From Gemmatimonadota bacterium (GTDB lineage Bacteria; Gemmatimonadota; Gemmatimonadetes; Longimicrobiales; RSA9): a stretch of DNA of 49,989 nt. The stretch spans positions 1 through 49,989 of the forward strand of contig JBDLIA010000014.1 of the NCBI GenBank assembly GCA_039715185.1, written 5' to 3'. Position numbers and translations under genes: made by a program. The notes under the pieces are model-generated. The model was not told where the DNA came from, made no database searches, and saw only the letters and a program-made list of their open reading frames with translations. Positions 9,454 through 29,232 of the stretch are shown here, one piece after another. Each line of letters opens with the position of its first letter. The first letter of the stretch is position 1.

Positions 9454-9532
9454 ATCACGTTGCTCCGATTCTATCGATAACGTCGTGCCGGGAAGCGCGG
9501 AGCCGCGAAGACTGCGGCGCGCCGCGTCTGCA

Positions 9533-9554: not shown

Positions 9555-9559
9555 CCGTT

Positions 9560-9760
9560 TCAGGTCCTGCGGGCCCGTCGGCGGGCTCTGGCGTTACGCC
9601 TGCGAGCCGCGGCCGCCTTGCGCTTGCGCGCCTCGCTGGGCTTCTCGTAGAAACGACGCTTCTTCAGCTCCTTGAAGAGGCCCGAGCGAATCACCTTGCG
9701 CCGGAACTGCTTGAGCGCCCAATCGAGGCGATCGTTCTCACTGAGGATGACTTCTACCAT
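9560..9760 (-). CDS. rpsU: 30S ribosomal protein S21
   Basis: A 66-residue basic protein starting [19 protein letters not shown], followed by [30 protein letters not shown], the characteristic S21 core. It is part of the small ribosomal subunit near the mRNA exit region. The frame is open to 9838, but homologues start at this MVEV, and GGTGGAAGC precedes it. The C-terminal tail is an Arg/Ala-rich extension ([10 protein letters not shown]), common in high-GC organisms. It lies just upstream of ahcY on the same strand. Confidence 0.96.
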
Positions 9761-9841
9761 GCTTCCACCATTCGGGATTGCGCGCGCGAACGCGATCGTG
9801 GCCACCGCGCTACACGCGGGGCTCGCATAGAGCCTCAAAAG

Positions 9842-10969
9842 CTAACTTGAAGGACCGATGTCGTCCAGATCGCGTTTCATCTCGCGCTCAACCGCCTCCA
9901 CAACGCCCGCGGAGATCAGCTCGGCCTCGGCGAGGCCGCGCGCCAGAGCCAGTGTATCGGCGCCCGCGACCGCCGCCGCGCCGCCGGCCGCGATGTCGGC
10001 CAGGCTTCGATCCAGCCCGTCACGCTGGCGTGCGACACGGCGGATGCACACGGCCCGGACTCTTCCGGGACGCTCACGGACCGCAGCCGCGTACACGTCC
10101 GCGTCGTGCTGCCCGCTGTCCCCCATGAGCACGAAACGCAGGCCGGGGTGGGCGTCCAGGATGGCCAGAACGTGGGCGAGCTTGTGCTTCGTGTGATCGG
10201 CCGCGATGAGGTGGTCGCTGGTGAGGCCGTAGTCCTTCAGCAGCAGGGTGCCGCGCGGGATGTGGTTCAGCTCCAGGAATCTGACGAGCAGATCGAACAG
10301 GTTCCAGGGGCTGCTGGACACGTAGAAGAACGGTCGCGAAAGCGACTCCGCGTCGCCCCGGAGGCCGCGGTAGAGGGCGCCGACTCCGGGGAACGCCTGG
10401 CGCGTGTGGGCGTTGCCGAAAAAGGTATGGCGCGCCATGCGCAGAAGGCTCGTCGCCTCCGTGCGCAGCACCGTGTCGTCCAGGTCGCTGATGATCCCGG
10501 CGGCGACGCCGGGCGCGGGCACCTGATACTGTCCAGACGCCCGCGCGCCCGCGCGAAAAGGAGCGGGAGCGGCCAGGACGGATGCCTCCACCCGGCGCCA
10601 AAGGCCGCTTCCGGTGGGCGTGGTCAGGGTGGCTTCGAAGTAGCCCTCATCGTCGCTCTCCACCTCCGCGCTTGCGCCGCCGGAGACGAGCCGGATCCGC
10701 GCCCCTCCTACCTCCGTGCTGTCCAGACGAGCGATGGCTCGCGCCAGGTTGCGCAGCGCCGAGTCGTCGGGACCGGCGGGCCGCAGCGGTCGCGCCTCGA
10801 GGACGCGCCCCCTCAGCACCGTCCGCCGCTCGTTACCGTGACCGCCGTACAAGTGAATGTCCAGCTCGGACGCTCGTCCGCCGGCGCGGCGGACCGCCCC
10901 CCGGAACCCGTCGATGCGGGCTTCGGCCTCCGCGAGCAGGGCGTGGAGGGCGCGACGCACTCCGCTCAC
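9842..10969 (-). CDS. App1-type phosphatase (phosphatidate phosphatase App1 / DUF2183 family)
   Basis: A 375-residue protein with a GTG start. The C-terminal half carries the HAD-like catalytic motif DxDxT (SDLDDTVLRT, Asp162 and Asp164), then FFYVSSSPWNLFDLL and FVLMGDSGQHDADVY, which are diagnostic of the App1 family. Yeast App1 dephosphorylates phosphatidate; the bacterial substrate is not established. The N-terminal half has a beta-rich segment (LYGGHGNERRTVLRGRVLEARPL) typical of bacterial family members. It is divergent from the pilin 1 gene across a 173-base intergenic region. Confidence 0.85.
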   Translation of the reverse strand: MSGVRRALHALLAEAEARIDGFRGAVRRAGGRASELDIHLYGGHGNERRTVLRGRVLEARPLRPAGPDDSALRNLARAIARLDSTEVGGARIRLVSGGASAEVESDDEGYFEATLTTPTGSGLWRRVEASVLAAPAPFRAGARASGQYQVPAPGVAAGIISDLDDTVLRTEATSLLRMARHTFFGNAHTRQAFPGVGALYRGLRGDAESLSRPFFYVSSSPWNLFDLLVRFLELNHIPRGTLLLKDYGLTSDHLIAADHTKHKLAHVLAILDAHPGLRFVLMGDSGQHDADVYAAAVRERPGRVRAVCIRRVARQRDGLDRSLADIAAGGAAAVAGADTLALARGLAEAELISAGVVEAVEREMKRDLDDIGPSS

Positions 10970-11142: not shown

Positions 11143-11562
11143 ATGTACGTGCTCGGACGCAGGGGCTTCACGCTCATAGAGCTACTCATCGTCGTCGTGA
11201 TCCTGGGAATCCTGGCGGCGCTGGCCATTCCCAAGTTCACCGGGACCCGGGCGCGGGCGCAGATCACCGCCATGATGGCGGATCTGCGCAACCTATCCAT
11301 CGCCCAGGATATCCACCACGAGGATCCGGACAACGCGTTCACGTACGCGGCGAACGTCGCGGATCTGGCCGACTTCGGCACGTCCGACGGCATCTCCGTC
11401 GCTGTCCTCGAGGCGTCCACCACGGGGTGGAGCGGGCGCGCTACCCACCCCGGCCTTCCGGACCACGAGTGCGTGGTCTACTACGGCGACGCGGCCCCCA
11501 TCTCGACCACCGCCGGAATCGCGCCCTCCGCCGACGGGGTGATCGCCTGCGACCAGTTCTGA
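11143..11562 (+). CDS. Type IV pilin (pilin 1)
   Basis: A 139-residue prepilin. A 7-residue basic leader ending in Gly is followed by FTLIELLIVVVILGILAALAIP, the class III signal and N-terminal helix with Glu5, which prepilin peptidase cuts and methylates. A Ca-rich-looking acidic middle (DPDNAFTYAANVADLADF) and a C-terminal Cys pair (HECVVYYG...IACDQF) suggest a D-region disulfide loop. AGGGGGGAGA immediately upstream is a strong ribosome site. It is led by a sigma-54 promoter and followed by the PilS-like kinase gene. Likely a structural pilin; whether this or pilin 2 is the major subunit cannot be told. Confidence 0.9.
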   Translation: MYVLGRRGFTLIELLIVVVILGILAALAIPKFTGTRARAQITAMMADLRNLSIAQDIHHEDPDNAFTYAANVADLADFGTSDGISVAVLEASTTGWSGRATHPGLPDHECVVYYGDAAPISTTAGIAPSADGVIACDQF

Positions 11563-14824: not shown

Positions 14825-15280
14825 ATGTCGCTCACGGACCGGAAGGGCTTCACCCTGATCGAGCTGCTCATCGTAGTCGTGATCATCGGCATCCTGGCCG
14901 CGATCGCGATTCCGAAGTTCAGCGCGACTCGCGAGAAGGCGTATGTGGCCAGCATGAAGGCCGACCTGCGCAACCTCGCCACCGCCGAGGACCTGTTCTA
15001 TGCGTCTGACAACGACGCCGACGGGACCCCGGATTACACCTACACCGCTCTGACCGCTGACCTGGACGACTTCGCTTTGAGCGAGGGCGTGGTCATCGCG
15101 ATCAACGGCGCCGACCAGCAGGGCTGGAACGCGACATCGACGCACGGCGCGCTGGGCACCGGCGAAGGCTGCGTGGTCTACTACGGTTCGGGTCCCAATG
15201 GCGACGCCTCTGGCGTGATGACTCCGGTGGACGGCACTGCGCCGGCCGGCTCGGGCTCGATCGTCTGCGACAACGTCTAA
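14825..15280 (+). CDS. Type IV pilin (pilin 2)
   Basis: A 151-residue prepilin from the ATG at 14825, preceded by GAGGATC; the frame is open upstream to a TTG at 14768, but that would overlap the promoter. Leader MSLTDRKG, cleavage before FTLIELLIVVVIIGILAAIAIP, Glu5 present. The globular part resembles pilin 1 (ADLRNLATAEDLFYASDNDADG; LTADLDDFALSEGVVIAI) and again has a C-terminal Cys pair (GEGCVVYYG...IVCDNV). The best terminator in the window follows, and a sigma-54 promoter precedes, so it is a single-gene transcript. That layout is common for a highly expressed major pilin. Confidence 0.92.
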   Translation: MSLTDRKGFTLIELLIVVVIIGILAAIAIPKFSATREKAYVASMKADLRNLATAEDLFYASDNDADGTPDYTYTALTADLDDFALSEGVVIAINGADQQGWNATSTHGALGTGEGCVVYYGSGPNGDASGVMTPVDGTAPAGSGSIVCDNV

Positions 15281-15450: not shown

Positions 15451-15864
15451 ATGATGGCTTTCTCCGGCGAGGAGTCAGCCTCGTGCCCGGCCCCGACCGG
15501 GTACTCGCTGATCGAGCTGCTCACCGTGATCGTCGTGTTGGCCGTGCTGGCCGCGATCGCGATTCCGCGGCTGTGGGGAGCGGGCGAAGAGGCGCTGCGA
15601 TCCACGGTCCGGCACGACCTGCGCAATCTCGCCGTCCAGCAGGAGATACATTTCAACGAAGCGAACCAGTACGCGGCCGACCTCGCGACGTTGGAAGTGA
15701 TCCCCAGCGACGGCGTGACCCTCGCGATCCTGGAGGCCACGGGAAGCGGCTGGTCATCGACGGCCAGGCACCCTCGGTTGGCGCCGTCGGGGTGCGCGGT
15801 CTTCTTCGGCGACGCCGCGGCGGTGCCGCCCGCGACCGTGGCCGGACAGCCGGCTTGCGACTGA
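15451..15864 (+). CDS. Type IV pilin-like protein (pilin 3)
   Basis: A 137-residue prepilin with a longer 17-residue leader ending PAPTG, cleaved before YSLIELLTVIVVLAVLAAIAIP; Tyr replaces Phe at position 1 and Glu5 is kept. The globular part follows the same plan as pilins 1 and 2 (HDLRNLAVQQEIHFNEANQYA; GVTLAILEATGSGW; SGCAVFFG...PACD) but is shorter. No sigma-54 element was found upstream, and it lies after the pilin 2 terminator. It is followed closely by the second kinase gene, so it may be co-transcribed with it. Confidence 0.85.
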   Translation: MMAFSGEESASCPAPTGYSLIELLTVIVVLAVLAAIAIPRLWGAGEEALRSTVRHDLRNLAVQQEIHFNEANQYAADLATLEVIPSDGVTLAILEATGSGWSSTARHPRLAPSGCAVFFGDAAAVPPATVAGQPACD

Positions 15865-15904
15865 CCGGTTGTCCCCGGGCGGGCCAACGTGGCATCCTCC
15901 GCTG

Positions 15905-17206
15905 GTGAACCCTCGACGATCTCTTCGCCAGGAACTGATCACCGCGTTCACGCTCGTGTTCGCGGGGGCGCTGCTCGTGGCGGTTGTGGGCGTGCGGCTG
16001 ATCTCCACCGCGACGAGCGATCCGAACGTGGCGCTGACCTACGTGGTCGCATTGATCGTGGCCGACCTGATAATCTTTTTGATGTTCGGCCGGAGGCTCA
16101 TCCGCGAGCGGGTTCTGGAGCCGATCGACGAAGTGGTAGGGGGCGTGGAGGCGATCGCGGGTGGGACCTACGAAGAGCGTGTGCCGACCGACGGGCCCGA
16201 GGAACTATCGCGGCTTGCCGGTTCCGTGAACGAGATGGCCGAGCGCCTCATCAGCCACCAGATGGACCTGGCCGAGAATGTCCGCTCCCTGGAGGACACC
16301 AACCGCGAGTTGACCATGGCGCGCAACGAGCTCATCCAGTCGGAGAAGATGGCGTCGGTCGGTCGATTGTCGGCCGGCATCGCGCACGAGGTCGGCAATC
16401 CGCTGGGCGCCATCATGGGATACCTGGGAGTCGTCAGGAAGCGTAGCGACGCCGAGACGCGGCAGCTTCTCGAGTCCGCCGAGGGCGAAGCTCGCCGCAT
16501 CGACCGGATCATGCGGGGACTCCTCGACTACGGCAGGCCTCGCGAAGTCACCCCCCAGACCCTGGACGTGCGTCCCGTGGTCGCCGACGCTGTCGACCTG
16601 ATCCGCGCCCAGGGCAAGTTCGAGGATATCGATGTGGAGACCGTGCTCGCCGACGATGCTCCCGCCGTGCGGGCTGATCCCTACCGGCTCCAGCAGGTGC
16701 TCGTGAACCTGCTCCTGAACGCGGTGCACGCGCTGCAGGCGCGCCCCCGGAGGTCGCTGCGCGTGGTGGTGGAAGAGGAGGTTCTGGCGCATCCCGAGCA
16801 CAAGCCCTTTCGCAGGCACGATGACCTGCCGGGGATCGACTACTCTCACAGGCGGCGGTTCCACGAGCGTCCCAGGGTGCCCGCGGAAAGGGACTTTCCG
16901 GAGGACAGGGTCGTGCGCATAGACGTGGAGGACACCGGATCCGGGATTGCCCCGGAGCTCGTCGACACCATCTTCGAGCCGTTCACGACGACCAAGGAGC
17001 CGGGCGAGGGCACGGGCCTCGGGCTGGCGGTCGCGGCGCGGCTGATCGATGCGATGGAGGGCACCATCCGGGTGCACAGCACGCTCGGCGAGGGTACGCG
17101 GTTTACGATCCTGTTGCCGGAAGCGTTGGACAGCGACGAGGGCGGCATGACCGCCGCCGATGACGACGAGGCGCGCGCCGCGCGTGTGGAGGGGGAGCGA
17201 TCGTGA
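15905..17206 (+). CDS. Membrane sensor histidine kinase (HAMP type), partner of the next gene
   Basis: A 433-residue kinase from the GTG at 15905; a TTG at 15869 is also open but adds a Pro-rich stretch. Two transmembrane helices (LITAFTLVFAGALLVAVVGV; LTYVVALIVADLIIFLMFG) flank almost no periplasmic loop. A HAMP domain follows (LEPIDEVVGGVEAIAGGTYE), then HisKA with His161 (GIAHEVGNPLGA) and HATPase (NLLLNAVHAL; VEDTGSGIA; GTGLGLAVAA). An Arg/His-rich insert of about 40 residues sits between the N and G1 boxes. Its stop overlaps the start of the sigma-54 regulator gene (GTGA). Confidence 0.88.
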   Translation: MNPRRSLRQELITAFTLVFAGALLVAVVGVRLISTATSDPNVALTYVVALIVADLIIFLMFGRRLIRERVLEPIDEVVGGVEAIAGGTYEERVPTDGPEELSRLAGSVNEMAERLISHQMDLAENVRSLEDTNRELTMARNELIQSEKMASVGRLSAGIAHEVGNPLGAIMGYLGVVRKRSDAETRQLLESAEGEARRIDRIMRGLLDYGRPREVTPQTLDVRPVVADAVDLIRAQGKFEDIDVETVLADDAPAVRADPYRLQQVLVNLLLNAVHALQARPRRSLRVVVEEEVLAHPEHKPFRRHDDLPGIDYSHRRRFHERPRVPAERDFPEDRVVRIDVEDTGSGIAPELVDTIFEPFTTTKEPGEGTGLGLAVAARLIDAMEGTIRVHSTLGEGTRFTILLPEALDSDEGGMTAADDDEARAARVEGERS

Positions 17207-18561
17207 AGATCCTGGTCATAGACGACGAGCCGGGGCTGCGCCAGACGGTGTCGCTCGTATTGAGCGAAGAGGGATATCAGGTCAACGCTGCCTCGGACGG
17301 CGAAGAGGGCCTCGTGCGGGCCGAAGAGCTCGAGCCGGACATCATCCTGTGTGATGTCCGCATGCCCAGGCTTCCCGGGATCGAGTTCCTGGAGCGTTAC
17401 CGGGCTTCAGGGGGCACCGCCCTCGTAATCGTCATGACCGCCTACGGGAGCACCGAGCTGGCAATCGAGGCGATGAAGAAGGGCGCCTACGACTACCTGC
17501 CGAAGCCGTTCGCGGCCGACCAACTGGTCCTGACTCTCAAGAAGGCTCAGGAGCGGGAGTCGCTCAGAAAAGAGGTGCGTCGCCTGCGCAAGGAAGTGCG
17601 CGCCGAGCGGCAGTTCGGTGAGATCATCGCGCGCTCGCCGGCGATGACCCGGGCGCTCGCCACGGCGGCCAAGGTTGCGAGGCATCCTTCGCCGGTGTTG
17701 GTGACCGGCGAGACCGGTACCGGCAAGGAGCTGGTCGCCCGGCTGATCCACACGGAGAGCGAGCGCGCCGACGCTCCGTTCCTGGCGATCAACTGCGGCG
17801 CGATCCCGGAGAACCTGTTGGAGTCCGAGCTCTACGGTCACGTCAAGGGCGCCTTCACCGGCGCCGACCGCGACAAGGTGGGGTTATTCGAGGAGGCCGA
17901 CGGAGGCACCGTTTTCCTGGACGAGATCGGCGACATGCCGCTCTCGCTTCAGGTCAAGCTCCTGCGCACGCTGCAGGAGGGGGAGGTCCGCCGCGTTGGT
18001 GACGCGCGCACGCGCACGGTCGACGTGCGCGTCGTGTCTGCGACGAACAAGAACCTCGAGAAGGAGATCAAGGAAGAGGCCTTTCGTAGGGATCTCTTCT
18101 ATCGGCTGGCGGTCGTGGTCATCCACCTCGCGCCGCTGCGTCAGCGCAAGGAGGAGATTCCCCTGCTGATCAAGCACTTCGTCGAACGGTATTCGGACAA
18201 GCTGAGTGTCGACGTCGACGGAGTCGACGGGCAGGCGATGGAGCTGCTGCAGGCCTATACCTGGCCCGGTAACGTGCGCGAGCTGGAGAACTCGGTCGAG
18301 CGCGCGCTCGTCTTGACGGAGGGGCCGAAAATCTCCGCCGAGGATCTGCCTGAGCAGATTCGATCGCCGGTGAGGGCGTTCGACGAGCCGGACCTGCTCG
18401 AGGACGAGCTGTCCGTCAAGAAGCACGGCGCCGCGCTGGAGCGCCGGCTGATCAAGAAGGCGTTGGAGCGCACGGGCGGCAACAAGACCCGCGCCGCCGA
18501 GCTGCTGGAATTGAGCTCTCGGGCCCTCCTGTACAAGATCCGCGACTACGGGTTGAACTGA
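17203..18561 (+). CDS. Sigma-54 dependent response regulator (second of the pilus locus)
   Basis: A 452-residue NtrC-family protein: receiver with Asp51 ([13 protein letters not shown]) and Lys in LPKPF; AAA+ domain with Walker A (TGETGTGKE), a standard GAFTGA loop and Walker B (VFLDEIGD); Fis-type helix-turn-helix at the C-terminus ([20 protein letters not shown]). Translation is coupled to the kinase before it. The minor-pseudopilin operon starts 53 bases after its stop, which suggests a pilus-related target, but no -24/-12 element was seen in that gap. Confidence 0.92.
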
Positions 18562-18614: not shown

Positions 18615-19082
18615 ATGAACGTCAATCTCAAGCACCGTTCCGGTTTCACCCTCATCGAGGTGCTGGCCACCCTCGCCGTGCTGCTCGTGCTCACGGGCAT
18701 CGCCGGAGGCGGCGCGCGCGGCCTCTCGGAACGCGCCCGCGTGCGGGGGGCGCGCGACGCCACCGCGGCGCTGATCAGCCTGGCCCGGGCCGAGGCACCG
18801 GCGCGCAGCGGGGCGCACGTCGAGGTGGACCTCGGTACCGGTCGCGTCGTCGTTCGCGCCGGTAGGCCACCGCCCGCCGCCGGACCGGACATCGCCGCGC
18901 TCGACCTGCGAGAGCGCTTCGGGGTCAGCCTCGACAGTCGCGGCCGCGCGGAGGGCGCCGTCTACCTGATCTTCGACCCATACGGGATCGGCCGGGTGGC
19001 GAGTCGCACCCTGCGCTTCACGCGCGGCGCGTACAGCGCGGGCCTGACCGTGTCGTCGTACGGCAGGGTGGTACGATGGTGA
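18615..19082 (+). CDS. GspH/FimT-like minor pseudopilin (operon A, first gene)
   Basis: A 155-residue prepilin: leader MNVNLKHRSG, then FTLIEVLATLAVLLVLTGIAGG with Glu5. The C-terminal part (RTLRFTRGAYSAGLTVSSYGRV) matches the closing strands of GspH/FimT proteins. Minor pseudopilins of this type form part of the complex that starts pilus assembly. It overlaps the next gene by 7 bases. Confidence 0.85.
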   Translation: MNVNLKHRSGFTLIEVLATLAVLLVLTGIAGGGARGLSERARVRGARDATAALISLARAEAPARSGAHVEVDLGTGRVVVRAGRPPPAAGPDIAALDLRERFGVSLDSRGRAEGAVYLIFDPYGIGRVASRTLRFTRGAYSAGLTVSSYGRVVRW

Positions 19083-19435
19083 CGTCGCGCCACGGGTTTA
19101 CCCTCGCCGAGGTGCTGGTCGCGCTTCTGCTCATTTCTTTCGGGGCGCTCGGCCTCGCCGCGATGGCGGCGCAGGTGACGCGCTCCACCCGGCGGTCGCT
19201 CGAGATCGAGCGCGCGGTGGCGCGAGCGTCGTGGGTCATGGACTCTCTGCTCTCGGTCCCGCCCGTCAGCGCGGGCTCGGACCGTGCCGGGGACCTCCGC
19301 ATCGAGTGGTCTCCGGCCGCGACGGGCGTGCTGCTCACGAGGGTCCTCGACCGAACCGACAACCCGCTCGTCTCCCTCTACGCCCGCGAAGGCTTGCCCC
19401 TGCCCGACCCGCCCGTCGGGGCTGGCCCCCGATGA
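19076..19435 (+). CDS. PilV-like minor pseudopilin (operon A)
   Basis: A 119-residue prepilin, short for the family. Leader MVTSRHG, then FTLAEVLVALLLISFGALGLAAMAA, the PilV/GspI pattern with Glu at position 5. The soluble domain is small (SLEIERAVARASWVMDSLL; IEWSPAATGVLLTRV). The stop overlaps the following start (ATGA), so the genes are translationally coupled. Confidence 0.82.
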   Translation: MVTSRHGFTLAEVLVALLLISFGALGLAAMAAQVTRSTRRSLEIERAVARASWVMDSLLSVPPVSAGSDRAGDLRIEWSPAATGVLLTRVLDRTDNPLVSLYAREGLPLPDPPVGAGPR

Positions 19436-20154
19436 ATGGCGCTCGCTGCGGCGCGCGACCACCTCCGGGCTTCGCCCTTACCGAGCTGCTGGTCGCGGCG
19501 ACCCTGGGAGGCGCGCTGCTGACCGCCGCCTTCGCTCTGCTCGGTTCTCAAGCTCGCCTCAGTCGGCTTCAGCACGCGGTCGTGCGGGCAGCCGAGGTCG
19601 TGCGCATCTCCGGGCTCGCGATTCCGGGAGAAACGAGGTTCGCCTTGCCCGCCGACATCGACGTGGCCGGCGACTCCATGGTCATCAGGGCGGTGCGTGG
19701 CGTGGGGATCGTGTGCGCCTCGGCCGGAAGCGACGTGCTGGTCCGTTTCCGCGGGATGCGCAGCCCCGACCCAGCCAAGGATTCGGTGCTTCTCTCCGGC
19801 GCGGCGGTCGAACGCGCCATGGACCTGCAAGCGGACGCCGCCGACCCCGGGGGATGCGCGGCGGCGGAGGGCGAGGAAATTCGGCGCTGGCAGACGGCCG
19901 CGGGAGCCCTGGACCCCGGGTCGGTCCTGCACCTGTTCGAGCGCGGCTCCTACCACGTGTCGGGAGGCGCCCTCCGCTATCGGCGCGGGCGGGGCGGCCG
20001 CCAGCCGCTGACGGATGAAGCCTTGGCCCCGGGCGGCGGTTTCGCCGTCGAGGGCCCCCCCGCGGCGCTGGTGCTCGACCTGGTGGTCTCGCTGCCCGAC
20101 GGCGGAGACCCTCAGGCGTGGCGAGTCGCCGCGCGGCTGTGGAACTGGCCGTGA
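19432..20154 (+). CDS. PilW-like minor pseudopilin (operon A)
   Basis: A 240-residue prepilin from the ATG at 19432 within ATGA. Leader MNGARCGARPPPG, then FALTELLVAATLGGALLTAAFALL; Glu5 kept. The soluble domain has Cys residues at GIVCASAGS and ADPGGCAAAEG that could pair. The order after PilV and the larger size suggest the PilW/GspJ group. It overlaps the next gene by 4 bases. Confidence 0.78.
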   Translation: MNGARCGARPPPGFALTELLVAATLGGALLTAAFALLGSQARLSRLQHAVVRAAEVVRISGLAIPGETRFALPADIDVAGDSMVIRAVRGVGIVCASAGSDVLVRFRGMRSPDPAKDSVLLSGAAVERAMDLQADAADPGGCAAAEGEEIRRWQTAAGALDPGSVLHLFERGSYHVSGGALRYRRGRGGRQPLTDEALAPGGGFAVEGPPAALVLDLVVSLPDGGDPQAWRVAARLWNWP

Positions 20155-21197
20155 GAGGATCCGGGCGGCGGGACGGCTTCGTTTTGCTGGGCGTCCTCGC
20201 GACGCTCCTGGTTCTGGGCATCGCGGCGGTGGCTTCGGCGGCCGTCGCGTCGGCCGTGGCGCGCGTACAGGAGTCCCGTTTGCAGGCGGAGCGGGCCCGC
20301 CTGGCGGCGGTCAGCGGGGTCCACGCCGCGATCGACGACTGGCCAGCCGATAGCGTGGCGTCGCTGGCGCCGGGCGAGCGGTTTCTGCTCGCGCCCGGCG
20401 GCGTCACCGGAGGCGGTCGCTACCAGGTGACCGTAGAGCGACTGGCCGTTGGCCGCGCGCTGGTTCGCTCCCGCGGCTGGGTCGAGGAGAGCGGCTCCCC
20501 GAGGGCGGAGTTGAGCATAGGAAGAGCGGTGACGTTGCTGTGCGGCTGCGACCTCGGCGACTCGATAGACGCCGCGGTGGAGGTGGCCGGGTCCGTCGCC
20601 GTGCCGGCGGGCGGCAAGGTGGAGGCGTTTGGGGTCGCCGCCATACGGGTCGACTCCGGTGTCGTGCCGGAGAGCCTCGCCGGGACCGTATCCGGCGACC
20701 CTCCCCTGGATGCGTCGGGCTTCACGCCCCTCGGCGCCGCCGCGGCGTGGTCTGCTCTCGCCGACCACGAAGCGGCCGGCACCCTCGCGCCGTCGCCGAC
20801 GCTGCTCGCGGACGGCTCCTGCGACAAGTCGGTGGCTTCGAACTGGGGCGACCCGTCGTCATCGGCCAGCGCGTGCTCCGGGTACGCGCCCGTGATCCGC
20901 GCCCCCTCGAGCCTGCGCCTGGACGGCGGGCTCGGGCAGGGCATCCTGATCGCCGAGCAGGAACTCGTGCTGGCCGCCGGGAGTCGCTACGACGGGCTGG
21001 TGCTCGCGTTCGGGCCGGTCCGCGTGGAGGCGGGCGCGTCGCTGTTCGGGGCGATAGTCGCCGCGTCGCCGGCGGCCCGCGTAGAGGTGGCCGGCGAGGT
21101 GATCCTCGACCCGGCCGCCCTCGTCGCGGCGCTATCCAGCGCGCTCGAAGGCAGGCCCTTCGAGGCGAGTGGGAGGAGGTGGACGGCGCTCTTCTGA
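20151..21197 (+). CDS. PilX-like minor pseudopilin, large (operon A)
   Basis: A 348-residue protein starting at the GTG at 20151 inside GTGA. Basic leader VRGSGRRDG, then FVLLGVLATLLVLGIAAVASA, the loose PilX-type helix lacking Glu5. A long soluble domain has a C-terminal module with Cys224, Asn-Trp-Gly at 231-233, Cys242 and GQGIL at 262-266, then short beta repeats (GLVLAFGPVRVEAGASLFGAIVA shape). The same module at the same spacing occurs in the PilX-like gene of operon B. It ends the first pseudopilin operon; 213 bases without a clear gene follow. Confidence 0.75.
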   Translation: MRGSGRRDGFVLLGVLATLLVLGIAAVASAAVASAVARVQESRLQAERARLAAVSGVHAAIDDWPADSVASLAPGERFLLAPGGVTGGGRYQVTVERLAVGRALVRSRGWVEESGSPRAELSIGRAVTLLCGCDLGDSIDAAVEVAGSVAVPAGGKVEAFGVAAIRVDSGVVPESLAGTVSGDPPLDASGFTPLGAAAAWSALADHEAAGTLAPSPTLLADGSCDKSVASNWGDPSSSASACSGYAPVIRAPSSLRLDGGLGQGILIAEQELVLAAGSRYDGLVLAFGPVRVEAGASLFGAIVAASPAARVEVAGEVILDPAALVAALSSALEGRPFEASGRRWTALF

Positions 21198-21410
21198 GTG
21201 GCCCGGTGGGGGCGCCTGAATCGCGAGATCCGTTGCAGCGGGGGGACAAACCTCGGCCGAGCCGTCGCGCAACATGTTTCCGTGCCTCCAAGTTTTTTCC
21301 CCGCAAAGGCACCGGAGGAAACTCGCAAGTCGCTGTTTTACAATGAGTTAGATCCAGGCATAGATCGTGGTGATATGATCGCGCGCAAACGCGAGAGTAT
21401 CGGGATAACC

Positions 21411-21857
21411 ATGATGAGAAATCGAACGGGCTTCACGGTGATCGAACTGCTGATCACGATGGTCATCGGTAGCGTGCTGGCCACCATCGTTTCGCAGGGC
21501 GTGGGCTCTTACATGCGGCGCCGATCGCTGGACGACAGCCGCGCGGCGGTCATCCACATGGCGGCCCGTGCCCGTTCGTTGGCCATGGAGCGAGGCTCCG
21601 CTTCGCTGAGCATCGATCCCGACCTGGACACAGTCACGCTCGTGCAGGGCACCGACACCGTCGATGTCCTGCTGATCGAGACGGACTACGGCGCGGACCT
21701 CACGGCCGCGCAGCCGCTCACGGTGTGCTATTCGCCCCGTGGCTTCGCGCTGGCCGCGTGCACGAATTTCACGGCCAACCAGACGCTGCAGCTGACCTTC
21801 CACAACGAGTCGGCGAATCTTCTGCTACGTCCGCTTGGTCAAGTGGAGGTGATGTGA
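21411..21857 (+). CDS. GspH/FimT-like minor pseudopilin (operon B, first gene)
   Basis: A 148-residue prepilin from the ATG at 21411; an ATG at 21375 (GTGGTGAT before it) is also open and would give a 19-residue leader. Leader MMRNRTG, then FTVIELLITMVIGSVLATIVSQG with Glu5. The C-terminal part (NQTLQLTFHNESANLLLRPLGQV) ends in the GspH/FimT pattern. Two Cys (LTVCYSPRG; LAACTNF) may pair. It overlaps the next gene by 4 bases. Confidence 0.83.
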   Translation: MMRNRTGFTVIELLITMVIGSVLATIVSQGVGSYMRRRSLDDSRAAVIHMAARARSLAMERGSASLSIDPDLDTVTLVQGTDTVDVLLIETDYGADLTAAQPLTVCYSPRGFALAACTNFTANQTLQLTFHNESANLLLRPLGQVEVM

Positions 21858-22246
21858 ACGCGCCTCGTCCGAGCCGCGACGGCTTCACGATAATCGAGCT
21901 GGTCATCGCGCTGGCCGTTCTCTCGATCGGCCTTCTCGCGATGGCTTCCGTGATGGGCACGCTGGTCATGCAGACCCGCGCCTCGGACATACGCACGGAG
22001 CGCGCGTTCGCGGTCCAGCAGACCGTGGAGAGGCTGCGAGCGGTGTCGTTGTCGACCATCGACGACCGGGCCGAGGCCGACGCCATGTCGGTGGGGAGCT
22101 ACGCCGTCTGGTGGAGCACCGCGGACGCCACCTCGCTCAAGCGTCAGATGGAGATTTTCACGAAGGGTCCGGGCTTCGTGCCGGGCGACGGCTTCATGGA
22201 CGCCAAGCTGGACACCTTTCGGGTCACCCTCGCTCGGATCGACTGA
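21854..22246 (+). CDS. PilV-like minor pseudopilin (operon B)
   Basis: A 130-residue prepilin starting at the GTG at 21854 (GTGA overlap) with GGAGGT just upstream. Leader VNAPRPSRDG, then FTIIELVIALAVLSIGLLAMASV, the PilV-type helix with Glu5. The soluble domain (ERAFAVQQTVERLRAVSL; YAVWWSTADATSLKRQM) fits PilV. The next gene starts 3 bases after its stop. Confidence 0.83.
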   Translation: MNAPRPSRDGFTIIELVIALAVLSIGLLAMASVMGTLVMQTRASDIRTERAFAVQQTVERLRAVSLSTIDDRAEADAMSVGSYAVWWSTADATSLKRQMEIFTKGPGFVPGDGFMDAKLDTFRVTLARID

Positions 22247-22249
22247 ATC

Positions 22250-23200
22250 ATGACTTCCAAGCTGCGACGGGTCCTGAGGGGCGCCTGGGTGAAGCGCGCG
22301 CAAGCCGCCGATGGTCGTGCGGGGTTCACGGTGGTGGAGTTGCTGGTGGTGAGCGTCCTCGGCGCGGTGGTCCTCGGCGCCGTCTTCCAGACGCTGTCGA
22401 TCCAGAACCGGACGTTTCAGCGGCAGAGCGCCACCATAGCCGCCCAGGAGGCGTCGCGCACGACGCTGGCCGTGCTCTCCGGCGAGCTGCGCGAGGTCAG
22501 CAGCACGGGCCAGGACCTGGTGGCCGCAACCTCCAACATCGTGATCATGCGGGTGCTCCGGAAATTCGGATTCGTGTGCAACGCGGGGCCCGCGGGCACC
22601 GTCTCCGTCTGGGAGCTGGGACAGCCGTACGCGGTGGGAGACAGCGTCTTCGTGTTCTCGCAGGGTGCGGACCTGGTCGATCCGGACGACGACGCCTGGC
22701 TGGCCGGGGAGGTTACGTCGGTCATAAACGGTGTCGGTCCGACGGGCTGCGGCATCACTTGGCCCAAGGAGACGCTGAGCGGCATGCCCGACGGGGATTA
22801 CGACATAGCGACCATCAGCGTCAGTTCGGCGGTCCCGTTGTCGAACGTGGGGCGCGGCGCGCCGGTGAGAAGCTTCGAGCGAGTGGTCTACTTCCGCTGG
22901 GAGCTCGGCGGTGAGGCCGTGCTGGCTCGCTGGACGCCGGCCGACGGAGTGATCCCCCTCGTGGGCCCGCTCGCGCCCGGAGGGGCCGGCCTGAAATTCG
23001 AGTACTTCGACACGGATGGCGCACAACTGGGCAGCGGCGGTGGGGCGCTGGCGGCGGCCGAGCTGGAGGAGGTGTCCTTCTTCACCATTTCGGTCCAGGG
23101 CCGGCAGGCCGCGGGCAGCATCGAGGCCGACGGGTTCTACGAGGACTCGCTCACGGTTTCGGTCTTCCTGCGCAACAACGATCAAAGCGCCCTGAACTAG
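22250..23200 (+). CDS. PilW-like minor pseudopilin (operon B)
   Basis: A 316-residue prepilin with a long 25-residue leader (ending DGRAG), then FTVVELLVVSVLGAVVLGAVFQTL, Glu5 present. The soluble domain is consistent with PilW/GspJ (TLAVLSGELREVSSTGQDLV; FERVVYFRWELGGEAVL; GLKFEYFDTDG). Single Cys at FVCNAG and TGCGI could pair. It is followed after 8 bases by the PilX-like gene. Confidence 0.85.
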   Translation: MTSKLRRVLRGAWVKRAQAADGRAGFTVVELLVVSVLGAVVLGAVFQTLSIQNRTFQRQSATIAAQEASRTTLAVLSGELREVSSTGQDLVAATSNIVIMRVLRKFGFVCNAGPAGTVSVWELGQPYAVGDSVFVFSQGADLVDPDDDAWLAGEVTSVINGVGPTGCGITWPKETLSGMPDGDYDIATISVSSAVPLSNVGRGAPVRSFERVVYFRWELGGEAVLARWTPADGVIPLVGPLAPGGAGLKFEYFDTDGAQLGSGGGALAAAELEEVSFFTISVQGRQAAGSIEADGFYEDSLTVSVFLRNNDQSALN

Positions 23201-23208
23201 AGGCTGAT

Positions 23209-24402
23209 ATGCAGCACGCAACAAACGACGAACGGGGATTCGCGCTGGCCGCCGCGGTGTTCGCGCTGGTGATTGTCGGCGCGCTGGTCACTGCGGGGTT
23301 CTTCGCCGCGTCGCAGGAGAGCCGCATCGGCTACAGCACCCAGTACGCGGCCGACGCGTTCTTCGCGGCCGAGCGCGGGCTGAACGAGCTGGTGGGCAGC
23401 AAGACCAAGGCGTTCTACAACGACTCGGTGGCCGACGACGCCATCGTCGAGCCGGCCGGATTCCAGGTGGTCCAGGTAGTCTCGGACGGCGTCGTGAGCG
23501 AGTTCTCCGTATCCGTGCGCGGTCTCGGCGACCAGCTCTTCTACGTGGAATCGACCGGTCGGGTCACCGGCGGTGGATCCTTCGGCGGCGCCGCGCGCCG
23601 CACCGGGATGGTCGTGCGCACCTTCGACCTGGACTTCGACGCCGACGCGGCGCTGATGAGCTTCGGTGGCGTGCGTACGCAGGGCGCGACCAACATCAGC
23701 GGGCTGGACGAGGCGCCGGCCGGCTGGGCGGGTTGCCCGGTGGGCAGCGACGGTCCTGGCGTGATCGCCAAGGACAGCTCTTCGGTAGACCCGGGCAACC
23801 AGACCACGCTCGACGGCGACCCGCCGGTCGATCAGGACACGACCATGACCGAGGACGATTTCCTGAAGTACGGCGGCCTGGACTACGATCGCCTCGCGGC
23901 CATGGCCGACGCCCAGTACCAGTACCGCGACGCCGAGGTGCTCAACAACATGGCGCCGTCGTACCTGTCCGGCGGCGCGTGCAACACCTTCGACGGCAAC
24001 AACTGGGGCGCGCCGCTCGACCAGACCGACGCCTGCGCGGGCCACTTCCCGCTCATGCACGCCAACGGCAACCTGACGGTGAACTCCGCGGCGTCGGGCC
24101 AGGGGATCCTGCTGGTGGACGGCGACCTCCGACTCACGGGCGGTTTCCAGTTCCACGGCGTGGTGATCGTGAAGGGCAAGCTGGTCATCGGCTCGGGCGG
24201 CGCCGATCTGCACGGCTCCGTGATGATTTTCAACGACGGAAACGACGTCCAGACCAACAATCTGGCGGGCGCTCCGACGTTCCAGTTTTCGAGCTGCGCG
24301 GTGGAGCGGGCGGTGGATTTGAACGCCGTGGCCAACAGGGCGTTTCCGCTCGGCGATCGCAGCTGGGTGGACCTGACGGCCACTGGTACATTAAGCTATT
24401 AG
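23209..24402 (+). CDS. PilX-like minor pseudopilin, large (operon B)
   Basis: A 397-residue protein: leader MQHATNDERG, then FALAAAVFALVIVGALVTAGFFA, lacking Glu5 as usual for PilX. Residues 40-60 (YAADAFFAAERGLNELV) match PilX N-terminal helices. The C-terminal module holds Cys258, Asn-Trp-Gly at 265-267, Cys276 and GQGIL at 297-301, then beta repeats (LRLTGGFQFHGVVIVKGKL). It is a clear paralogue of the operon A gene at 20151. A 255-base gap before pilM contains only a spurious-looking ORF. Confidence 0.83.
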   Translation: MQHATNDERGFALAAAVFALVIVGALVTAGFFAASQESRIGYSTQYAADAFFAAERGLNELVGSKTKAFYNDSVADDAIVEPAGFQVVQVVSDGVVSEFSVSVRGLGDQLFYVESTGRVTGGGSFGGAARRTGMVVRTFDLDFDADAALMSFGGVRTQGATNISGLDEAPAGWAGCPVGSDGPGVIAKDSSSVDPGNQTTLDGDPPVDQDTTMTEDDFLKYGGLDYDRLAAMADAQYQYRDAEVLNNMAPSYLSGGACNTFDGNNWGAPLDQTDACAGHFPLMHANGNLTVNSAASGQGILLVDGDLRLTGGFQFHGVVIVKGKLVIGSGGADLHGSVMIFNDGNDVQTNNLAGAPTFQFSSCAVERAVDLNAVANRAFPLGDRSWVDLTATGTLSY

Positions 24403-24657: not shown

Positions 24658-25698
24658 ATGGCGATGTTCGGTCGTAACCGGATGTCCGCTGGCCTCGATA
24701 TAGGCAGCGGATTCATCAAGCTTGTCGTCCTGGATCACTCGGGTGATGAGCCGGAGGTCGTGCGTCTGACCACGAGCCCGCTCGTGCCCGACGCGATCGT
24801 CGAGGGCGAGATCATGGATCCCATCCTCGTGACCGAAACGCTGCGCTCCGTGCTCGACGGCGCGGACCTCAAGAAGACCGACGTGGTCGCCGCGGTCGGC
24901 GGCCACGACGTGATCATCAAGAGGATCCAGATGGACCGCATGAGCGAGCCGGACGCGCGCGACGTGATCCGCTGGGAGGCGGAGCAGCACGTGCCCTTCG
25001 ACATGGAGAGCGTGCAGCTCGATTTCCAGATCCTCGACCCGGACGGCAACGGCGCCCAGATGGACGTGCTGCTGGTGGCTGCCAAGCGTGAGCTGATCGA
25101 GAACCGGATGGGGCTGCTCGCCGACGCCGATGTAGCCGCCAAGATCGTCGACATCGACGCGTTCGCGCTGCACAACGCGTTCGCGTTGAACTATCCGGAC
25201 GGAACTGCGGGCCTGATCGCGCTGCTGAACATCGGCCACGAGACCACCAACATCAACCTGCTCCAGGACGGCGTCCCGGTCCTCGTCCGTGACATCCCCT
25301 TCGGCTCGCGCCGGTTGCGTGAGGCGCTGCAGCGCGAACGGGGCATGACCGCCGAAGCCGCCGAGGAGGCAATCCAGGGCCACGACGGCGGCGTCGACCT
25401 GGACGCCTTCGTCAGGGCGCGCTCGGAGGAGCTGGCGATCGGCGTCGAGCGCGCCACCGCCTTCGTCGGCGCGCAGTCGGGTGGTGGGCAACTGGGACGC
25501 GTTTTCATGTGCGGGGGCGGAGCCCGCGTGCCGGGCATCGTCGACGCAATGGGAGAGCGACTGAGCGTTCGCACCGAGATCGCCAACCCGCTGCAACGCT
25601 TGGCGATTCGACCGGAAATCCTGCAGTCCACGAACATCGAGGAGCTAGCGCCGATGCTGATGCTCCCGGTGGGCCTGGCACTGCGCAAGGCAGCGTGA
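24658..25698 (+). CDS. pilM: Type IV pilus assembly protein PilM
   Basis: A 346-residue cytosolic actin-like ATPase. The nucleotide-binding phosphate loop is GLDIGSGFIKLVVL; other segments typical of PilM include RDVIRWEAEQHVPFDM, LLNIGHETTNINLL and the adenosine motif MCGGGARVPGI. PilM binds the PilN N-terminus and links the inner-membrane alignment complex to the motor. It is the first of pilMNOPQ and is followed after 13 bases by pilN. Confidence 0.95.
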   Translation: MAMFGRNRMSAGLDIGSGFIKLVVLDHSGDEPEVVRLTTSPLVPDAIVEGEIMDPILVTETLRSVLDGADLKKTDVVAAVGGHDVIIKRIQMDRMSEPDARDVIRWEAEQHVPFDMESVQLDFQILDPDGNGAQMDVLLVAAKRELIENRMGLLADADVAAKIVDIDAFALHNAFALNYPDGTAGLIALLNIGHETTNINLLQDGVPVLVRDIPFGSRRLREALQRERGMTAEAAEEAIQGHDGGVDLDAFVRARSEELAIGVERATAFVGAQSGGGQLGRVFMCGGGARVPGIVDAMGERLSVRTEIANPLQRLAIRPEILQSTNIEELAPMLMLPVGLALRKAA

Positions 25699-25711
25699 GA
25701 GGGGGGCGGCC

Positions 25712-26419
25712 GTGATCGAGATCAACCTTGCTCCAGGCGCACGTCGGAAGCGGCGCAGCCGCAAGGTAGCGTTTTCGCTACCGCGCGGGCGGTCCTCGGA
25801 TGGGGGTCCGGACCGGTGGAACGTGGCGGTCGCGGCCGCCTGGATCGTCGCTCCGCTGATGCTCGGCTGGATGTTCTTCGGAGCCCGCGGGCAGAGGGCG
25901 GACCTGGGGGTGGCCATCGAAGAGGCCCGCCAGGACAGCGCGCGGTTCGCGCAGGTCATTGAGTCGAACGCCACGCTGAAGGCCAGGCAGGACAGCATCG
26001 CCGAGAAGCTGGAAATCATCCAGCAAATCGACGCCGGGCGTTACGTGTGGCCGCACGTGCTCGATGAGGTCGCGCGCGCGCTGCCCGAGTACACGTGGCT
26101 GACCGATGTCACGCAGACCGCGGGGGGGCCGCTACCGACGTTCCGGTTGGAGGGTCGAACGGGCACCACCTTCGCGCTCACCAGCTTCCTGCAGTCGCTC
26201 GAAGGGTCGCCGTTCGTTCGGGATGTCCGCTTCGAGTCGACCGAGCAGGTGTTCGAAGACGAGCGGCGACTCTACGAGTTCACGATCGCCGCCAGGTACG
26301 AAGAGCCGGCGAGTGACCTGATCGAGACGGTGCCGGTCTTCAGCGGCGAGGACGACGTGGAACCGGCGTTGGTGGTGGCGGACGAAAGGTCCGTCGCCGG
26401 CGCCGCGGGGGGGAGGTAG
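25712..26419 (+). CDS. pilN: Type IV pilus assembly protein PilN
   Basis: A 235-residue bitopic membrane protein starting with MIEINLAPGARR, the conserved PilM-binding peptide of PilN. One transmembrane helix (VAVAAAWIVAPLMLGWMFFG) is followed by a coiled coil (ESNATLKARQDSIAEKLEII) and an alpha/beta domain (LPEYTWLTDVTQ; LEGRTGTTFALTSFLQSLE). It forms the inner-membrane alignment complex with PilM, PilO and PilP. pilO starts 2 bases after its stop. Confidence 0.93.
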   Translation: MIEINLAPGARRKRRSRKVAFSLPRGRSSDGGPDRWNVAVAAAWIVAPLMLGWMFFGARGQRADLGVAIEEARQDSARFAQVIESNATLKARQDSIAEKLEIIQQIDAGRYVWPHVLDEVARALPEYTWLTDVTQTAGGPLPTFRLEGRTGTTFALTSFLQSLEGSPFVRDVRFESTEQVFEDERRLYEFTIAARYEEPASDLIETVPVFSGEDDVEPALVVADERSVAGAAGGR

Positions 26420-26421
26420 GG

Positions 26422-27036
26422 ATGCCATTGCTGCCGCAGGATCCGGCCAAACAGAAGAAGCTGCTCGCCATCATGGCGCCGCTCCTGGCGATGGGTGGGT
26501 ACTGGTACTTCGTCCACGGCAAGGCGGCCGAAGAGATCGACACGATGTCGCAGCGCCTGGAGACCATGCAGGCGCAGAACCAGTCCGCGCGCACGCTGGC
26601 CAGCAGCGGTGGCGCGGAGCTGGAGCGTCGTCTTGAGATCTACGAGCAGTACACGGGGCGTCTGGAGCGGCTCATTCCGAACCGCGACGAGGTGCCACAA
26701 CTCCTCTCTGACATCTCCGCACGGGCCCAGCAGGTCGGGGTAGACCTCGCGCTGGTGAGGCCCGAGACGGAGTCGAGAGGCCCGTACTACACGCGCCAGA
26801 CGTACGAAATGGGCGTGACGGGCAAGTATCACGATGTAGGACTGTTCCTGAGCGAGATAGGATCGCTGCCGCGGATTATCACGCCGATCGACCTCGAGGT
26901 GTCCGCGCTGCGTGCGGGGCCCGAGGAGGGCGCCGACCAGGTGGTGGAGGCGTCTTTCAGGATCGAGACGTACGTGTTGCCGCGGCCAGGGGAGGTTGCG
27001 GATTCGACGGGGGGTGGGGGCGATGGACGCACGTAG
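26422..27036 (+). CDS. pilO: Type IV pilus assembly protein PilO
   Basis: A 204-residue bitopic membrane protein: a short cytoplasmic N-terminus, one transmembrane helix (KLLAIMAPLLAMGGYWYFV), a coiled coil, and a ferredoxin-like periplasmic domain (LISDISARAQ-type helix; YEMGVTGKYHDVGLFLSEI). It partners PilN in the alignment complex. GGGAGG precedes the start. It overlaps pilP by 14 bases. Confidence 0.93.
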   Translation: MPLLPQDPAKQKKLLAIMAPLLAMGGYWYFVHGKAAEEIDTMSQRLETMQAQNQSARTLASSGGAELERRLEIYEQYTGRLERLIPNRDEVPQLLSDISARAQQVGVDLALVRPETESRGPYYTRQTYEMGVTGKYHDVGLFLSEIGSLPRIITPIDLEVSALRAGPEEGADQVVEASFRIETYVLPRPGEVADSTGGGGDGRT

Positions 27037-27454
27037 CTTCTTCGTAGCGACTCTGGCGCTCCTGGCGAGCGTGGGCGTCGCCAGCGCTCAAACGACGATG
27101 CCGCCGAAGAAGGCGCCGGTCGTCGAATTGGAATATGAGCGCGAGGTTTTTCGCTACCCGGTGGCGGGCCGGCGGGACCCGTTCTCCGCGCTGTCCAAGC
27201 GTGGAGACCTGGGCCCCCGTTTCGACGAGCTGACGCTGCACGGGATCATCTTCTCCGAGCGCGCCGGTAGCAGCGTAGCCGTTCTTTCGGACGGCTCCGG
27301 CAAGCGCCATCGCGTCCGCAGAGGTGACGTGGTGGGCGACGCTCAGGTGCTGGACATCGGCCAGACCCGGGTGGTGTTCAGCGTCGAGAACTTCGGGATT
27401 CGACGCCAGGAGGTACTCGAGCTCGGCGGCGAGAGGCCGGGGGTGGCACCATGA
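27023..27454 (+). CDS. pilP: Type IV pilus assembly protein PilP
   Basis: A 143-residue protein from the ATG at 27023, inside the end of pilO, with a GGGGGTGGGGG stretch upstream. A signal peptide (FFVATLALLASVGVASA) is followed by the PilP core (YPVAGRRDPFSAL; LTLHGIIFSERAGSSVAVL; RHRVRRGDVVGDAQVLDI). PilP normally is a lipoprotein, but no Cys is present at the cleavage site, so this one appears to be a soluble periplasmic form. It would link PilN/PilO to PilQ. It overlaps pilQ by 4 bases (ATGA). Confidence 0.9.
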   Translation: MDARSFFVATLALLASVGVASAQTTMPPKKAPVVELEYEREVFRYPVAGRRDPFSALSKRGDLGPRFDELTLHGIIFSERAGSSVAVLSDGSGKRHRVRRGDVVGDAQVLDIGQTRVVFSVENFGIRRQEVLELGGERPGVAP

Positions 27455-29232
27455 ACGCGGCCATCTCGCTTTTGCTGGCGCTGACGGCGGTCGCTTCGGC
27501 GCCGCTGATGGCGCACGAGTTACCGGTATCGCACGAAGCCGCGGTGGATGTGCGGGGCCTGCGGATCCTGTCCGCGGGGGACCGCACCGTCGTGGAGATC
27601 GACGTTGATGGACCCGCCGATCCCGCCGACTATCTGCTGCACGGCCCGGCCCGTTTGGTCGTCGATGTGCCTGGAGCTCGCCACGCTCTGCCCGCGTACC
27701 GGTTCCCCGGAATCGATAGGGGCGGCGTGCTGGGCGTGCGCACGAGCCAGTTCAAGCCGGACGTCGTGCGCGTAGTCATCGAGCTGCAGGCCGCCGTCGA
27801 GTACGCGGTCGAGCGCAGGGAAGGCCTGATTCGCCTGAGCTTCGCGAACCCCGGCGCCGAGTTCGACGCCTGGGAGGTCGGGGCCGTGGGCGAGCCGTCG
27901 GCCGGCGAGCGCATTGGGCGTCCCGGCCCCCGCGTCGAGACGGCGGCGGTGGCCGAGCCGGTGATCCCGCGCGCTCAGCAGGAGCCGCGCATCACCGTGA
28001 TATTCGAGGACGAGCCCATCCGGAGCGTCATCGCGACCTTCTCGGCGTTCTCGGGTCGGAGCATCGTGGTCGGCTCGCAGGTCGACGGGACCGTCGACGC
28101 CAGCATCAACGATCAGCCCTGGGACGTGGCACTGCAGGCGATCCTGCGCACGCACGGACTCGAAGCCCGCGAGACCGAGAGCGGCATCATCCGGGTCGAC
28201 AAGCTCGAGGAGCTGCGCAGGGTCGAAACCCTCGAGGAGACGGTCACGCGCCAGTTCCGCATCAAGTACGCGAGCGTGGACTCGATCGCCCCGTCGATCG
28301 AGCCGCTGCTTTCCGATAGCGGGCGCATCTCCAAGAGCGGCAACACCAACTCGCTCATCGTGACTGATCGCTCGAGCGTGGTGGAGCGGATAGCGCCGAT
28401 CATTGAGCAACTAGACGTCCGGACTCCGCAGGTCACCGTGGCGGCCAAGATCATCTTCGTCGACCGGACGGCCATCGAGGAGCTGGGCATCGTCTACGAC
28501 ATCAAGGATTCCCAGGGCAATCAGCTCAACCAGGTGACCCCGGGCTTCCTCGACTCCGACGGCGACGGGGTGCTGGAGCAGAACGAGCAGACCAACGACG
28601 ATGTAGTGCTGCTCGGTGGGTCCTCGATCGCCGCGCTGGCCAACGCGAACAACCGCGTAACGTCGCCGGCGCTGCAGATCCTCACCTCGCTCGTGCTGGG
28701 TCGACACACGCTGGTGGGCTTCCTCGAGGCGCTGCAACAGCTGAACCTGACCGACATCCAGGCCGTTCCCTCCATCCGGACGATGGACAACCGTACCGCC
28801 CGCGTGCAGGTCGGCGAGCGCACGCCCATCCGGGTGCTGGACGCCCAGGCGCAAGGCGGCGACGGTGGTCCGCGGGCGACGGTCAATCTGGAAGAGACCG
28901 GCGTCATCCTCGAGATCACGCCCCACGTGACCGGCAATCAGGTGCTGCTGGAGATTCACGCGGAGCGCAGCAACATAGCGCTGGCGCCGTCCGACATCGG
29001 CGTCACGTTCCAGACGCAGGAAGCCGACACGCAAGTCCTCCTGGAGGACGGCGAGACGGCTGTGATCAGCGGCCTGACGCTGATCGAGAAGACGCAAGTG
29101 CGCACGGGCATCCCGCTTCTCATGGACCTCCCCGTCCTGGGTGCGCTGTTCCGGACCACGCAGGAGCGCGAGAACAAGCGCGATCTGCTGATCATGGTCA
29201 CGCCCTATATCGAACAAGCGAATGCTCTATGA
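27451..29232 (+). CDS. pilQ: Type IV pilus secretin PilQ
   Basis: A 593-residue outer-membrane channel precursor. Signal peptide at 1-25. A single AMIN domain at about 30-130 (GPARLVVDVPGA; VVRVVIEL) binds peptidoglycan. A secretin STN domain follows at about 180-235 (EPIRSVIATFSAFSGRSIVV), then one N1 domain (RQFRIKYASVDSIAPSIEPLL), and the secretin pore from about 330 to the end (VQVGERTPIRV; GVILEITPHVTGNQVLLEI; PVLGALFRTTQERENKRDLL). Proteobacterial PilQ often has two AMIN domains; here there is one. It overlaps the lipoprotein gene downstream (ATGA). Confidence 0.95.
   Translation: MNAAISLLLALTAVASAPLMAHELPVSHEAAVDVRGLRILSAGDRTVVEIDVDGPADPADYLLHGPARLVVDVPGARHALPAYRFPGIDRGGVLGVRTSQFKPDVVRVVIELQAAVEYAVERREGLIRLSFANPGAEFDAWEVGAVGEPSAGERIGRPGPRVETAAVAEPVIPRAQQEPRITVIFEDEPIRSVIATFSAFSGRSIVVGSQVDGTVDASINDQPWDVALQAILRTHGLEARETESGIIRVDKLEELRRVETLEETVTRQFRIKYASVDSIAPSIEPLLSDSGRISKSGNTNSLIVTDRSSVVERIAPIIEQLDVRTPQVTVAAKIIFVDRTAIEELGIVYDIKDSQGNQLNQVTPGFLDSDGDGVLEQNEQTNDDVVLLGGSSIAALANANNRVTSPALQILTSLVLGRHTLVGFLEALQQLNLTDIQAVPSIRTMDNRTARVQVGERTPIRVLDAQAQGGDGGPRATVNLEETGVILEITPHVTGNQVLLEIHAERSNIALAPSDIGVTFQTQEADTQVLLEDGETAVISGLTLIEKTQVRTGIPLLMDLPVLGALFRTTQERENKRDLLIMVTPYIEQANAL

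Follow-up and report, generated by a model that had tools for sequence, protein, structure and literature searches.

Why should one type IV pilus locus encode two complete sets of minor pilins? The question is raised by a 49,989-nucleotide stretch of a Gemmatimonadota genome (contig JBDLIA010000014.1 of assembly GCA_039715185.1, order Longimicrobiales; hereafter the window), which is contig C14 in a genome of 3.66 Mb, 96% complete. Directly upstream of pilMNOPQ lie two consecutive operons, set A (18615-21197) and set B (21411-24402), each encoding GspH/FimT-, PilV-, PilW- and PilX-like prepilins (H, V, W and X) in that order. Probably the two are functional alternative tip or priming complexes on one type IVa machine. 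That they divide their work between DNA and some other ligand, with DNA binding on the side of set A, is a more tentative proposal suggested by sequence features.

An earlier note on this DNA, made from its letters alone, had described two minor-pseudopilin operons of identical gene order with overlapping or nearly touching genes, and this description was confirmed in frames and order, with refined coordinates. The genes A1 to A4 are spaced by -7, -4 and -4 bp and B1 to B4 by -4, +3 and +8 bp, with gaps of 213 bp between the sets and 255 bp between B4 and pilM. Class III prepilin signals with Glu5 were found in six of the eight proteins, A4 (FVLLG) and B4 (FALAA) being without Glu5. Prepilin models matched A1, A2, B1, B2 and B3 above cut-off and A3 below it. 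Four prepilins in H-V-W-X order, the class III signal and linkage to pilMNOPQ identify both as type IVa minor-pilin sets, the A3 prepilin domain and the PilV model remaining below cut-off.

Each A protein has its best match in its namesake in B, and vice versa, with identities of 26% over 157 residues for A1/B1, 40% over 47 for A2/B2, 30% over 139 for A3/B3 and 28% over 218 (E 2e-16) for the PilX-like pair A4/B4. Because every protein matches its namesake best, the likeness comes from duplication of one four-gene operon and not from chance. The pairs had been thought strongly diverged except for the PilX-like one; the deep divergence holds, and the exception falls away, as A4/B4 is distinguished only by score and alignment length. 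Trained on the pil genes of the loci themselves, a codon-based gene caller picked all eight frames with positive scores, and both sets are open in the relatives that hold them. Sets A and B are old paralogous sets, and both are intact. In the two closest pairs of relatives carrying both (L053/L060 and L057/L061), the ratio of nonsynonymous to synonymous change (pN/pS) was 0.35-0.63 for set A, 0.23-0.41 for set B and 0.09-0.33 for pilM-N-O-Q; these figures are rough, synonymous change being near saturation, and pairs further apart have diverged too far for a judgement.

The history of the sets was followed in 60 pilM loci from relatives, by genome-wide searches and by a count over 298 genomes of the phylum. 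In the window's family (f1) both sets are present in each of the 11 genomes that have pilM, so that the survey of relatives proposed earlier came out for co-conservation and against decay. The sets are adjacent in ten of them, and the eleventh (G009) has set B intact on another contig. In three of the ten adjacent cases (L046, L048, L049) the pilM slot is occupied by a distinct B lineage, B', which groups with a dispersed set (L193). In maximum-likelihood trees every PilW and PilX protein falls into one of two clades, A or B (support 97-100%), also when outgroups were included; no date for the split follows from these trees. A-type PilW proteins (at least 137 bits) were found in 57 of the 298 genomes, all from f1 or a second family of this order (f2), the next best genome reaching 88 bits. 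B-type PilW proteins were found in 171, of which 71 (tallied by hand from the matches listed) have more than one copy and up to seven, and B-type sets adjoin pilM in other orders too. By this distribution, set B is the phylum-wide set and set A is confined to this order.

Around this pattern the arrangements vary. Both sets are kept in f1 and in many f2 genera, set A occurs without a strong B match in genera g12 and g17 and some others, and a third family (f3) has a B-type set only. Set B lies away from pilM in L188, L189, L190 and L194 and is doubled in L043 with L195, and other lineages have tandem sets of their own at pilM (L151, L153, L157). No convincing remnants of B were found between A4 and pilM in loci with A only. 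The pilM-adjacent slot of one genome (L052 of G108, 7284-10969) holds a differently ordered set that matches A or B only weakly, a 579-residue protein (GFALEA...) preceding its H-, V- and W-like prepilins. Some f2 genomes (L057, L061, L115, L117) have a gene of about 1000-1050 codons on the opposite strand between A and B, a relative of which adjoins the relocated B set in L189; the product of about 1020 residues in L057 and L061 has hydrophobic stretches at its start.

The most consistent difference between the sets is found in the tail of the H subunit. A C-terminal GRxR is the DNA-binding motif of FimT and is present only in part in FimU (PMC8897410), and among the Xylella paralogues only FimT3 binds DNA, being needed for transformation alone (PMC9956873). 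The motif G[RK]x(1-2)[RK] lies in the last 14 residues of all 38 A-type H proteins (tails similar to YGRVRRW), 20 of which have strict GRxR. It is absent from all 20 H proteins of second sets beside A, where GQ stands in its place in 17, B1 of the window included; the GspH of the genome's type II secretion system likewise has LGQ. Lineages with B only mostly keep the arginine motif, which was found in 9/9 H proteins of f3 and, when counted less strictly across the C-terminal half, in 12/13 pilM-linked sets of other orders. The background is low (35 of 1623 other proteins, 2%, and almost none of the V, W and X subunits). The state of the motif requires 11 changes on the PilW tree vs. about 39 with shuffled labels, and is therefore strongly inherited. 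In paired genomes set A is also more basic than set B, in H (15/17) and in W (20/20).

The fourth subunit is unusual in both sets. A4 and B4 have no Pfam match up to E 1 save one at chance level, the PilX family PF14341 is unmatched, and no NCBIfam family was found. AlphaFold models built on alignments of relatives (mean predicted local distance difference test scores of 89.3 for A4 and 84.5 for B4) show a long pilin helix, a short sheet, a beta-rich domain that we read as a solenoid, and a final helix. The best match among solved structures in Foldseek was ComZ of Thermus (6qvi; E 2e-6 for B4 and 1e-3 for A4), with ice-binding proteins next. No homology to ComZ emerged when PDB sequences were searched with profiles; the profile of A4 matched antifreeze proteins by sequence (E 1.9e-6, residues 264-317) and that of B4 matched nothing. 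The PilX-like subunit of both sets is thus predicted to carry an ice-binding-type beta-solenoid like that of ComZ. ComZ itself is a GspK-like pilin with a solenoid superposing on the ice-binding protein FfIBP; it has been shown to bind DNA, a tip position has been argued for it, and it was proposed to be the DNA receptor at the pilus tip (PMC6561018). Net charge was considered as a sign of DNA binding by the ComZ-like subunits and was dropped as uninformative, both copies in the window being acidic. In other Gemmatimonadota two or three PilX/ComZ-like genes are consecutive (L156, L164, L133), as if the tip subunit had multiplied.

PilY1 (PF05567) was matched in 0/61 relatives and, weakly, in 1/298 genomes of the phylum; the 14 control genomes were also unmatched, so that the sensitivity of the search is poorly established, the single weak match being a sign that it can match at all. 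By this search neither set is a PilY1-associated cluster of the Myxococcus type. The locus suggests that beta-solenoid tips without PilY1 are common across the whole phylum.

Both sets appear to face a single pilus machine. The genome search gave one pilM match, and PilB-, PilT- and PilC-like genes are grouped on contig C5; ComEC is also present. With two strongly diverged sets and one PilMNOPQ, the idea of two tip complexes on one machine, already put forward in the earlier note, is favoured as the best reading.

Several observations weigh against it, or against the proposed division of labour. Some genomes manage with A alone or B alone, and because such single-set genomes exist neither split is obligatory. 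Between the members of the two closest pairs, set A has changed faster than set B. The A1 motif of the window (GRVVR) has one residue more than strict GRxR, and a B-type set in an A-bearing genome (L191) is exceptional in having LGRVTK. Within f1 and f2 the motif seems to have been lost roughly once at the base of B and once in B', and the tie between motif and set A accordingly depends on few events. Finally, the global TM-scores to ComZ are low (0.2-0.3), so that the likeness is one of parts and composition, not of whole shape.

The rival that survives best is that the sets are both functional with no division of labour, priming the same pilus either redundantly or depending on conditions, which we consider rather unlikely. 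Redundancy in motility has been shown for Myxococcus clusters 1 and 3 (PMC7541494), and each type serves as the sole set in some lineages, A in g12 and g17 and B in f3 and other orders. The long joint retention in f1, the consistent differences in H tail and charge and the deep divergence of all four pairs argue against it.

It is improbable that the sets serve two different filaments, each priming its own major pilin. Three GspG/PilA-like pilins are encoded upstream (at 11143, 14825 and 15451), and in Thermus a single machine produces both wide and narrow pili (PMC7203116). Nevertheless, the number of upstream pilins showed no relation to the presence of set B in the surveyed pilM loci, and genomes with only A at pilM also have two pilins.

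A role for one set in a type II secretion-like system through PilMNOPQ, as suggested in the earlier note, is very improbable, even though the genes are ordered much as in GspH-I-J-K and, like GspK, the PilX-like proteins are without Glu5. Of the genome's three secretins, one is PilQ, another lies on C22 close to a CpaF-like ATPase (Tad-type), and the third adjoins GspE on C125. Because the genome thus has a type II system of its own, with GspD/GspE on C125 and, on C46, a distinct GspF-H-I-J-K operon that encodes a true GspK domain, participation of A or B in secretion is unlikely; A4 and B4 have no match to the GspK domain (PF21687/PF03934). A 1583-residue RHS-repeat protein on C46 (L039:3038-7789) has near-identical starts on C125 (L101) and C13 (L103) of the window genome (G000); it directly follows gspE on C125 and on C46 precedes gspF, from which a transposase-like fragment separates it. 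The type II operon may have been split by a mobile or repeated element, or the assembly may have broken at this point.

That one set is a decaying duplicate, for which the faster evolution of A and the absence of the pilM-adjacent B from several relatives might speak, is scarcely credible, as all eight genes are open here and in the relatives holding them, A is the sole set in many genomes, and a B missing at pilM is often intact elsewhere.

For two alternative tip complexes on one machine the following model can be proposed. In Myxococcus, complexes of H-V-W-X with PilY1 prime assembly and stay at the tip (PMC7541494), which we extend to the GspK-I-J-H arrangement by analogy. All components of a GspH-I-J-K-type tip are present in each set: H as adaptor, V and W, and the Glu5-less K/X subunit. 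Either A or B would start a pilus and remain at its tip. The X subunit would be outermost, its predicted solenoid exposed in place of PilY1. Set A would form a competence tip, where DNA may be caught by the arginine tail of H, and perhaps by the solenoid, and fed to ComEC. Set B, without this tail and with more acidic H and W, would have another ligand and might act in attachment or movement. The choice of tip could be set by relative expression or by competition for the machine.

In its wider form, which we hold possible and put forward with reserve, the model has interchangeable tips splitting an ancestral double role: A, an innovation in part of one order, would have taken over DNA capture, while the older B would have lost its tail (Arg to Gln) and turned to another ligand, ComZ-like tips would have replaced PilY1, and the pilM-adjacent slot would have been refilled with different B-type cassettes. 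The way in which a single pilus machine manages DNA uptake, attachment and movement is still debated in general; here the retention of the motif by only one of the sets suggests that they divide such jobs between them. The locus offers a paired comparison in a phylum with almost unstudied pili, two full tip sets in one place differing in residues that bind DNA elsewhere, and leads to a direct prediction: A1 should bind DNA and B1 should not.

Regulatory signals were also searched. Sites resembling sigma-54 promoters show enrichment upstream of pilins and of B1, for the most part in f2 (11/20 B1 upstream regions vs. a Markov mean of 1.4). Sites of the TGGCAC-N5-TTGC type lie 57-145 bp upstream of B1 in L050, L053, L055, L057, L058, L060, L061, L066, L069 and L072, and many pilin genes are likewise preceded by them; sets A and B may be regulated apart in f2 genomes. 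The window has such sites 78 bp before the pilin at 11143 and 68 bp before that at 14825, none of that strength before B1, and at A1 there are hardly any; sigma-54-like promoters are therefore not claimed as an A/B switch here. Searches for sigma-70 promoters, terminators and Rfam families gave nothing useful.

The two sets belong to a co-directional block at 11-29 kb (Table 1), which comprises a pilin, pilS-pilR, two pilins, a second pair of kinase and NtrC-type regulator, set A, set B and pilM-N-O-P-Q. An NtrC-type regulator adjoins the minor-pilin genes in f1, f2 and f3 as well. Directly behind pilQ (29229-31787) an 852-residue protein with a lipoprotein-like start and no Pfam match is encoded; as relatives often have a gene of 560-1300 codons in the same place (L109, L121, L126), it may belong to the pilus locus.

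Table 1. Features of the pilus locus in the window
Feature	Position	Strand	Basis
A1, GspH/FimT-like prepilin, set A, 155 residues	18615..19082	+	N_methyl E 6e-7; GspH E 0.0019, below cut-off
FimT-type arginine motif GRVVR at the A1 C-terminus (tail YGRVVRW)	19062..19076	+	G[RK]x(1-2)[RK] in last 14 residues
A2, PilV/GspI-like prepilin, set A, 119 residues	19076..19435	+	TIGR02523 PilV E 5e-9, below cut-off; prepilin domain above cut-off
A3, PilW/GspJ-like prepilin, set A, 240 residues	19432..20154	+	prepilin motif; clade A of PilW tree
A4, PilX/GspK-like putative tip pilin, predicted beta-solenoid, set A, 348 residues, GTG start	20151..21197	+	AlphaFold model; ComZ 6qvi match; antifreeze profile match
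B1, GspH/FimU-like prepilin, set B, 148 residues	21411..21857	+	N_methyl E 7e-8; A1 is best match in window
GQ replacing the arginine motif in B1 (tail PLGQVEVM)	21837..21842	+	motif absence in second-set H proteins
B2, PilV/GspI-like prepilin, set B, 130 residues, GTG start	21854..22246	+	TIGR02523 PilV E 2e-10, below cut-off
B3, PilW/GspJ-like prepilin, set B, 316 residues	22250..23200	+	N_methyl above cut-off; clade B of PilW tree
B4, PilX/GspK-like putative tip pilin, predicted beta-solenoid, set B, 397 residues	23209..24402	+	AlphaFold model; ComZ 6qvi match, then ice-binding proteins
pilM, pilN, pilO, pilP, pilQ (machine core)	24658..29232	+	Pfam PilM, PilN, PilO, Secretin above cut-off; PilP below
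NtrC-type response regulator, directly upstream of set A	17203..18561	+	Pfam
HAMP histidine kinase, paired with the regulator at 17203	15869..17206	+	Pfam
Pilin, GspG/PilA-like	14825..15280	+	Pfam and NCBIfam prepilin domains
Pilin, GspG/PilA-like	15451..15864	+	NCBIfam prepilin domain
Pilin, upstream of pilS-pilR	11143..11562	+	Pfam N_methyl

To call this locus an undescribed system, as the earlier note did, is too strong. Myxococcus xanthus has three minor-pilin clusters, of which cluster 1 or cluster 3 alone suffices for pili and motility (PMC7541494), Xylella has two pilEVWX sets, its paralogue sets showing mostly opposing phenotypes (PMC9956873), and multiple sets are common in the phylum. 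The literature searched, the coverage of which was incomplete, yielded neither tandem ComZ-like sets free of PilY1 in Gemmatimonadota nor a motif divided between entire operons in this way. As in Myxococcus, several FimU-PilV-PilW-PilX sets appear to serve one type IVa machine; in contrast to the scattered Myxococcus clusters, each with a PilY1, the sets described here stand in tandem beside pilM, have no PilY1 and encode an X subunit with a predicted beta-solenoid. The closest structural likeness of the A4 and B4 models is to the PilA1-PilA2-PilA3-ComZ system of Thermus thermophilus, with its K/X-type tip pilin bearing an FfIBP-like beta-solenoid. ComZ differs in having no sequence match to A4 or B4, a longer solenoid, one set instead of two, and two lysines that bind DNA, for which no counterpart is known in A4 and B4. 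The pairs FimT and FimU in gammaproteobacteria and FimT1-3 in Xylella are likewise paralogous H-type pilins, of which one kind has the C-terminal DNA-binding GRxR (PMC8897410, PMC9956873). In the window it is two whole operons in tandem that differ in this way, with GQ at the lost position, and for the arginine-tailed set DNA binding is a prediction from its sequence.

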